From the NCBI RefSeq assembly GCF_024808875.1, contig NZ_JANUCT010000015.1, positions 1-64,000 of the forward strand: 64,000 nucleotides of DNA, written 5' to 3'. Shown here piece by piece: positions 44,316 through 56,564 of this stretch. Each line of letters starts with the position of its first letter. Within the stretch, counting starts at the first letter, position 1. This stretch comes from Methylohalomonas lacus (GTDB lineage: Bacteria; Pseudomonadota; Gammaproteobacteria; Methylohalomonadales; Methylohalomonadaceae). The position numbers and the translations under genes were made by a program. Below the pieces are notes generated by a model, which saw only the letters and a program-made list of their open reading frames with translations, made no database searches and had not been told where the DNA came from.

Positions 44316-44351
44316 CCTCCCCCTTGACGGGGGAGGATCAAGGTGGGGGTG
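44316..44351. repeat. GGGGGTG hairpin repeat, copy 1 (overlaps DUF559 stop)
   Basis: A hairpin (CCTCCCCC / GGGGGAGG, loop TTGAC) at 44316-44336 is followed by ATCAAGGTGGGGGTG at 44337-44351. On the minus strand the repeat itself encodes the last residues and stop of the DUF559 protein (SPPP, TGA). Confidence 0.9.
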
Positions 44352-44673
44352 ATAAATACCCACCAATATCCGTCAGTACTGCGTCGACATTAGAAAGCAC
44401 TTCATTATTCCAGTATCGAAGTACGCGATAACCCTGCCTTTCCAGCCACCGGCTGCGTTTATCATCATAGGCCACTTGTTCCTGATGCTGGCCACCGTCG
44501 ATCTCAACAATTAGCCCCGCTTCAAAACTGATGAAATCGACAATATAGGGACCGATCGGCTGCTGGCGACGAAACCGCACGCCGTGCATTTGGCGCCTGC
44601 ACAGATGACGCCATAGCAGGCGCTCGGCATCGGTGGGGTTAGAACGTAACTGTCTTGCTCTTTGAACATCCAT
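44338..44673 (-). CDS. DUF559 nuclease-fold protein inside hairpin repeats
   Basis: A 111-residue DUF559 protein. It has the Vsr/PD-(D/E)XK-like core: IVDFISFEAGLIVEIDGGQH (acidic residues) and GYRVLRYWNNEVLSNVDAVL. Its N-terminus (RARQLRSNPTDAERLLWRHLCRRQ) is the family signature. It starts 12 nt inside CACCCCC and ends inside GGGGGTG, so the repeats bracket it. The last four codons are repeat-derived. Related proteins are widespread and of unknown function; involvement in mobility of these repeats is a hypothesis. Confidence 0.88.
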   Translation of the reverse strand: MDVQRARQLRSNPTDAERLLWRHLCRRQMHGVRFRRQQPIGPYIVDFISFEAGLIVEIDGGQHQEQVAYDDKRSRWLERQGYRVLRYWNNEVLSNVDAVLTDIGGYLSPPP

Positions 44674-44685
44674 GTTCTTTTATTC

Positions 44686-44722
44686 ACCCCCATCCTAACC
44701 TTCCCCCATCAAGGGGGAAGGA
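44686..44722. repeat. GGGGGTG hairpin repeat, copy 2 (inverted)
   Basis: CACCCCCATCCTAAC is followed by a hairpin CCTTCCCCC/GGGGGAAGG with loop ATCAA. The internal C-to-T and G-to-A changes, relative to copy 1, keep the pairing. Its orientation is opposite to copy 1, with the DUF559 gene between them. Confidence 0.88.
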
Positions 44723-44773
44723 ACAAAGCGCTACGCGGTTCCGTCATGCCCCATACTGGCCTTCCACTATCAA

Positions 44774-44824
44774 CCTCCCCCTTGACGGGGGAGGTCGGCG
44801 AGCTTTGCTCGCCGGGTGGGGGTG
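44774..44824. repeat. GGGGGTG hairpin repeat, copy 3 with second hairpin
   Basis: The hairpin CCTCCCCC/GGGGGAGG (loop TTGAC) is followed by a second stem CGGCGAGC/GCTCGCCG with loop TTT (44796-44814), then GGTGGGGGTG. With copy 2 it forms an inverted pair separated by about 50 nt. It ends 7 nt from the pepN stop. Confidence 0.9.
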
Positions 44825-54349: not shown

Positions 54350-54488
54350 CACCCCCACCCGATGAACTTCGTTCATCGACCTCCCCCGTCAAGGGGGAGG
54401 TTAAAAAATGAAACAACCGATCATTTCCTCCCCCTCGATGGGGGAGGTTAAAGCCTGTCCCGTACTTGATACGGAGGTGGGGATGATA
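54350..54488. repeat. GGGGGTG hairpin element, copies 4 and 5 (inverted pair)
   Basis: Left half: CACCCCCACC, second hairpin CGATGAAC/GTTCATCG (loop TTC, 54360-54378), then CCTCCCCC/GGGGGAGG (54380-54400). Right half, inverted: CCTCCCCC/GGGGGAGG with loop TCGAT (54427-54447), a different second stem CCGTA/TACGG (54460-54474), then GGTGGGGATG. The 26-nt spacer (TTAAAA...GATCATTT) resembles that of the 56.5-kb element. Confidence 0.88.
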
Positions 54489-54574: not shown

Positions 54575-54610
54575 CCTCCCCCTCGACGGGGGAGGATTAA
54601 GGTGGGGGTG
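54575..54610. repeat. GGGGGTG hairpin repeat, copy 6
   Basis: CCTCCCCC/GGGGGAGG with loop TCGAC (54575-54595) followed by ATTAAGGTGGGGGTG. It has the same orientation and structure as copy 1, in the gap between two coding regions. Confidence 0.88.
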
Positions 54611-56452: not shown

Positions 56453-56564
56453 CACCCTCACCCGATGAACTTCGTTCATCGACCTCCCCCGTAAAGGGGG
56501 AGGTTAAAATCAAGATAACAGATCATCTCCTCCCCCTTGATGGGGGAGGACCAAGGTGGGGGTG
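56453..56564. repeat. GGGGGTG hairpin element, copies 7 and 8 (inverted pair)
   Basis: Left half: CACCCTCACC, second hairpin CGATGAAC/GTTCATCG (56463-56481, identical to the one at 54360), then CCTCCCCC/GGGGGAGG (loop GTAAA, 56483-56503). Right half inverted: CCTCCCCC/GGGGGAGG (loop TTGAT, 56529-56549), then ACCAAGGTGGGGGTG. The spacer TTAAAATC...GATCATCT resembles that at 54.4 kb. It abuts the 3' end of the alcohol dehydrogenase gene. Confidence 0.9.

Follow-up and report, generated by a model that had tools for sequence, protein, structure and literature searches.

Does the small nuclease-like gene that lies between two facing hairpin repeats in the DNA of Methylohalomonas lacus act on these repeats, and do gene and repeats together form a mobile unit? 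The window analysed here (the whole stretch of 64,000 nucleotides) contains an ORF on the minus strand (44338-44673), which matched the DUF559 profile PF04480 with an E-value of 3.6e-41 and 139.9 bits (curated cut-off 20.6). DUF559 is present as a single copy in the 2.76-Mb genome of 38 contigs. The gene, the adjacent repeats and the dispersed copies of the repeat in the window are as follows:

44338-44673, minus strand: DUF559 gene (YcjD-like, Vsr-fold PD-(D/E)XK), 111 aa, PF04480 profile match
44316-44351, plus strand: repeat copy 1, the tail of which encodes the last residues (SPPP) of the DUF559 protein
44685-44722, minus strand: repeat copy 2 ('A' end), hairpin CCTTCCCCCTTGATGGGGGAAGG followed by TTA and the tail GGATGGGGGTG; it faces the DUF559 gene at its 5' end
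44774-44824, plus strand: repeat copy 3, with GGCGAGCTTTGCTCGCC as an additional hairpin nested between its stem and its tail, facing pepN and pairing with copy 2
54350-54398, minus strand: dispersed copy of the same repeat as copies 1-3, nested-hairpin variant
54577-54610, plus strand: dispersed copy of the same repeat as copies 1-3
56531-56564, plus strand: dispersed copy of the same repeat as copies 1-3, adjoined by a bare hairpin (56485-56501)

As proposed in the initial annotation, the DUF559 gene is enclosed by two inward-facing inverted repeats (arms 44318-44352 and 44684-44718; 35 nt, 83%), and the pairing of copies 2 and 3 as a second inverted pair is likewise seen in the window. The gene has the A end on its 5' side and the B end on its 3' side, and its start ATG is located 11 nt inside the tail of copy 2. 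The repeat had been described as encoding both the SPPP residues and the stop of the protein; SPPP is indeed encoded by the tail of the downstream repeat, and the stop lies in the loop that separates the stem from this tail. One detail required correction: the GGGGGTG sequence regarded as the repeat is present but represents the tail of a larger motif, which consists of a 9-bp C/G stem, a loop of ~3 nt and a mirror-symmetric G-rich third strand. No target-site duplication was seen at the window's own unit, which comes from the single genome of its order. Proline-rich C-termini (PP, PPP) encoded by the repeat tail occur in several DUF559 proteins (L033, L046, L066 and the window protein).

The hairpin core was matched 16 times in the window (both strands, up to three mismatches) compared to 0.59 expected matches, and none of 100 shuffles reached this number. 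Genome-wide, it occurs at ~37 places, and a reversed control pattern at none. At least eight inward-facing repeat pairs, ~76 bp apart and with the common spacer GAATTAAACATCCTCGATAATTCAATC, form inverted doublets in this genome; the paired copies have two distinct ends, 'A' (GGGGGAAGG...GGATGGGGG) and 'B' (GGGGGAGGG...GGGTGGGGG). We then compared stem and third strand in 67 flanking elements. In 38 of them, every position of the third strand could form a reverse-Hoogsteen pair with the element's own stem, whereas dealing the tails between the elements (1000 deals) resulted in a mean of 12.8 and a maximum of 21 perfect fits. Stem and third strand therefore covary, which supports the triplex reading beyond E. 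coli. The repeat contains four G runs; since the antiparallel orientation of the third strand fits better than the parallel one (19 of 67 perfect), a triplex is preferred over a G-quadruplex.

In two of the window copies (44774-44824 and 54350-54398) as well as in L092 and L103, a second hairpin such as GGCGAGCTTTGCTCGCC is nested between stem and third strand. These nested hairpins leave stem and tail in place, which suggests that the folded single strand matters. Among the own-genome copies L009, L011, L013 and L030, some adjoin REP-like sequence of the GTAG type (GTAGGAGCGGCG...). Another repeat (GCGCATCAACCAACAGCGCGCAGCGCCACCTT) lies next to many A ends, so that mosaics of unrelated repeat families are formed.

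Hairpin repeats of this class have been recognised in E. coli since the 1990s. The C/G hairpin and a third strand mirroring the 3' stem strand were found by inspection in all three window copies at the locus, and the window repeats are members of the BoxC/PIT/'TM' intrastrand-triplex class. Holder et al. 2015 (PMC4666352) described this class for E. coli and for 262 genomes of proteobacteria. The window repeats share with BoxC/PIT/TM(ECO) the 9-bp C/G stem, the short loop, the 3-nt second loop, the mirror-symmetric third strand, a probably intergenic location and the inverted A/B pairs, but have longer G runs and sometimes a nested hairpin. The window stems (GGGGGAGG/GGGGGAAGG) deviate from the TM_ECO letter consensus (CCCTCNCCCN3-6GGGNGAGGGN3GGGNGAGGG), which is matched in the repeats of many DUF559 relatives. 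Triplex formation by TM repeats was shown in vitro; their origin was left unclear, the surroundings of TM(ECO) sites yielded no mobility gene, and no link to DUF559 was drawn for TM(ECO) (PMC4666352).

To what extent gene and repeat belong together was assessed with 45 full DUF559 relatives, which were collected by protein similarity without using the DNA flanks. A strict inward-facing hairpin with tail on both gene flanks was detected in 30 of the 45 (upstream 37, downstream 35), compared to 0 of 1371 shifted gene-sized windows from the same loci, and several of the relatives failing this two-sided test show degraded or nested copies by eye. In a sample from the same class, 16 of 21 DUF559 genes passed, compared to none of the 24 Vsr genes and none of the 16 Y1_Tnp genes, and all 21 DUF559 genes were flanked on at least one side. 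DUF559 genes elsewhere are hence mostly flanked by such repeats, which supports the REP/RAYT-like pairing that had been proposed from the window. The conserved unit occurs at loci labelled Pseudomonadota, Desulfobacterota-type, Chloroflexota, Cyanobacteria, Planctomycetes and Patescibacteria, with MAG contigs in the sample that may be misbinned. A generic repeat pattern was present at least once in all 31 DUF559 genomes looked up, some of them from other phyla; most have many copies and several only one.

At the genome level, we counted 229 genomes of the class and scored repeats as present if the generic pattern, net of the reversed control, occurred at least three times. This was the case for 28 of 53 genomes with a strong DUF559 match and 15 of 176 without (odds ratio (OR) 12, p 3e-11, with all genome-level odds ratios being presence/absence counts without phylogenetic correction), i.e. 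the opposite of repeats being equally common in the absence of the gene. The reversed control pattern was not significantly related to DUF559, and Vsr was not associated with the repeats (OR 1.4, p 0.48). No net copy of the exact pattern was found in 17 of the 53 DUF559 genomes, some of which have variant repeats that the generic pattern misses (e.g. L092, L224). For several repeat-rich genomes that lack DUF559, another genome of the family contains the gene (e.g. G045/G185, G162/G009), and one repeat-rich genome (G014) contains a broken DUF559. In L034 and L087, copies of the end repeat and short fragments of the gene end or flank recur after the DUF559 gene, resembling partial duplications.

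Multiplication of the unit within a genome was observed in the relative G032, which contains three DUF559 units on three contigs at unrelated sites. Their proteins are 96-98% identical, and the closest pair of units shows 98.3% identity over 534 bp. The units measure 492-530 bp, and their triplex hairpins are part of terminal inverted repeats (50-95 bp). Apart from DUF559 they contain no sizeable ORF, and no recognised transposase family was found in them. Direct repeats of 10-11 bp flank the units (GGTGCAGATT, GGTTTGTAACC and GGTTT[T/G]TAACC, the latter with one mismatch), whereas random window pairs shared at least 9 nt in 0.7% of draws. A multi-copy unit with terminal inverted repeats and target-site-duplication-like repeats, as is typical of insertion sequences, is consequently found in this relative, in agreement with the earlier suggestion of a possible mobile system. 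Two of the three units interrupt a dispersed palindrome (GCGGGTCAAGGTTTGTAACCTTGACCCGAACG; L243-L252), and the third lies within a related palindrome. About 20 uninterrupted palindrome cores (exact or with one mismatch) elsewhere in G032 serve as paralogous empty sites. As the units sit in the middle of other palindromes, they may prefer targets that form hairpins or are single-stranded. Most genomes have only 1-4 DUF559 genes, which indicates that gene-bearing units rarely multiply.

Turnover of the gene became apparent in a comparison of 18 genomes from the genus of L051 (Pseudomonas taiwanensis), for which we inspected the gap separating a HAD-phosphatase-like gene from a zinc-peptidase-like one. 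Seven genomes contain the orthologous DUF559 unit and three a DUF559 of another lineage (52-53% identity); one each has a truncated gene with repeats, gene-less repeats alone, and an unrelated repeat array. The remaining five have an empty site, with a gap of 34-130 bp and neither unit nor repeats.

An AlphaFold2 model of the window protein (pLDDT 87.8) matched the gonococcal DUF559 protein 3HRL (Z 16.1), the homing endonuclease I-Bth0305I (Z 11.0), Vsr (Z 9.8) and TnsA of Tn7 (Z 6.4). The catalytic-type residues E17, D46, E57, D59 and H63 are invariant in 40 DUF559 relatives. Of nine orthologue pairs from the Pseudomonas group, eight gave dN/dS values of 0.05-0.18, and one was too close for an assessment; this shows that the protein is kept functional by purifying selection; values for ycjD (0.33-0.89) are weak or uninformative, as the E. 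coli strains are close. Co-speciation of repeat subtype and protein was also considered and rejected, as there was no signal (Mantel r 0.02).

Taken together, the DUF559 gene and its two facing triplex-hairpin ends probably constitute a minimal transposable element, with the dispersed repeats as gene-less derivatives. Somewhat less firmly, we favour the broader reading of a new class of transposable elements, in which the Vsr-fold DUF559 protein would be the sole transposition protein acting on triplex-folding ends, and BoxC/PIT/TM repeats across phyla, including those of E. coli, would be miniature derivatives. The 30-40 other copies in the M. lacus genome would correspond to such gene-less forms, similar to REPINs or MITEs. 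Speaking against the transposon reading are the absence of a visible target duplication at the window's own unit and at the TM pairs of E. coli, the DUF559 genomes without a net copy of the pattern, the repeat-rich genomes without DUF559, the missing correspondence between repeat subtype and protein phylogeny, the low number of DUF559 genes per genome, and an O157:H7 strain that lacks ycjD at fabI-sapF although such strains have TM copies. DUF559 would be the enzyme that nicks or moves the repeats. The ends may become single-stranded, e.g. on the lagging-strand template, upon which hairpin and third strand would fold into a structured end that presumably serves as the substrate. DUF559 would then bind both folded ends and introduce staggered cuts at these ends and at the target, with the cut positions being likewise putative. 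Insertion would lead to a target duplication of ~10-11 bp and might be completed by host polymerase and ligase, and gene-less pairs could be moved in trans, as REPINs are by RAYTs.

It is also conceivable, though unlikely, that DUF559 is a passenger and that the repeats are moved by a RAYT/Y1 transposase or by replication slippage and recombination of the host, which sometimes carry the gene along. Y1_Tnp indeed occurs in 156 of the 229 genomes and shows a weak association with the repeats (OR 2.8), and the 15 of 176 genomes with at least three copies demonstrate that repeats occur without DUF559. However, neither of the other gene families tested (Vsr, Y1_Tnp) was ever bracketed on both sides, the gene is under purifying selection, and the association with DUF559 is kept within genomes that have Y1_Tnp as well as within those that lack it (in the latter 4 of 10 with DUF559 versus 3 of 63 without). 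A RAYT as the mover was rejected, because Y1_Tnp genes are not bracketed and the one in the window genome is flanked by different repeats. This sole Y1_Tnp gene (L120, G000:C1:12475-12807) lies elsewhere next to the repeat TTAAATCACTCCGACCCC, and the inverted repeat on its flanks (GGGGTCGGAGTGATTTAAT / ATTAAATCACTCCGACCCC) differs from that of DUF559. A homing-type endonuclease, which would cut repeat-free alleles and have the unit copied in by break repair, is less probable still. It would agree with I-Bth0305I being the second-best fold match and with the reoccupation of one Pseudomonas-group site by different DUF559 lineages, but the three near-identical units of G032 at unrelated sites with 10-11 bp direct repeats speak for insertion and not for allelic homing. 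Both alternatives fit less of the evidence than a transposon does.

A role of the repeats as regulatory or terminator hairpins for DUF559 and further genes, with bracketing reflecting autoregulation and apparent mobility reflecting ordinary recombination, seems highly improbable. In its favour, each end of the ORF meets a repeat, and the last residues are encoded by a repeat tail; yet gene-less pairs are dispersed, insertions show target-duplication-like repeats, and the motifs had neither promoter nor terminator activity in an earlier study cited in PMC4666352. Hardly any weight is left for bracketing by chance or base composition. G-rich motifs do arise in GC-rich genomes, and some reversed-control matches were obtained (homopolymer G), but the shifted windows (0 of 1371), the Vsr genes (0 of 24) and the reversed pattern, without a match in the window genome, ruled this out.

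Compared to known systems, the proposed element resembles REP/REPIN sequences with their RAYT (TnpA-REP) in having a resident gene between its own hairpin repeats and dispersed inverted doublets. In contrast to these, the bracketed gene is not a Y1 HUH transposase but a PD-(D/E)XK enzyme with Vsr fold, and several copies of the unit, with direct repeats of 10-11 bp, can occur in one genome. The tag that defines REPs, GTAG or CGTC at the foot of the hairpin (PMC3733652), was not found in the outer flanks and tails of 33 copies of the window genome. With insertion sequences and MITEs the unit shares terminal inverted repeats, a single ORF, direct repeats at the insertion and miniature derivatives; it differs by the lack of a DDE, HUH, serine or tyrosine transposase, its size of ~0.5 kb and its triplex-motif ends. 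The window protein is of the same family and fold as YcjD/DUF559 (PF04480), VsrA (PMC12907096) and NGO0050 (3HRL). DUF559 proteins have been read as Vsr-like repair enzymes, e.g. Caulobacter VsrA (PMC12907096), or as restriction-like enzymes, and flanking repeats or mobility are not described for them in the literature searched. Despite the similar fold, the window protein had no Vsr profile match (Pfam, NCBIfam), and K-12 YcjD only a sub-threshold one. Both the repeats and the DUF559 family are known; the link between them, the transposon-like unit and a Vsr-fold protein as the likely mover are new within the literature searched, from which subscription journals were mostly excluded, so that an earlier report is possible. 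The unit is a candidate source of the BoxC/PIT/triplex repeats of 262 proteobacterial genomes (PMC4666352), the spread of which was hitherto unexplained, and provides a candidate function for the common DUF559/YcjD family. If DUF559 is the mover, it would represent a bacterial transposon type based on a repair-nuclease fold, unlike any known transposase.

Both parts, the DUF559 gene and the TM repeats, are present in E. coli K-12, which allows direct testing. TM(ECO) no. 9 (1,351,204-1,351,239) is located in the gap between fabI and ycjD, the E. coli DUF559 gene (1,351,407-1,351,760). Upstream of K-12 ycjD (L078 1900-2300), a long perfect palindrome (CACCTCATTCTGACAA...TTGTCAGAATGAGGTG) takes the place of the triplex end, and downstream (L078) a degenerate hairpin overlaps the 3' end of the ORF, followed by TM no. 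9. The gene was found in 3365 of 5426 complete E. coli genomes. TM copies per strain range from 1 to 32, a number confounded by phylogroup; O157:H7 strains have ~14, and L109, the strain inspected among them, has no ycjD at fabI-sapF. Other strains lack the K-12 TM pair at hrpB-mrcB or retain a bare hairpin in its place; in one strain, the alx-sstT pair is likewise reduced to a bare hairpin, and no target duplication was seen at either. The ygfF-gcvP pair gives no clean empty site, since other strains lack the entire ygfF side. At alx-sstT, L128 and L129 have a different sequence, with another large palindrome replacing the TM pair and a locus 217 bp longer than in K-12. In six E. coli strains without ycjD (L108-L113), the fabI-sapF site contains an RND efflux operon, the eefRABCD of PMC12817139, where ycjD is mentioned only for occupying the position at which other lineages have eefRABCD.
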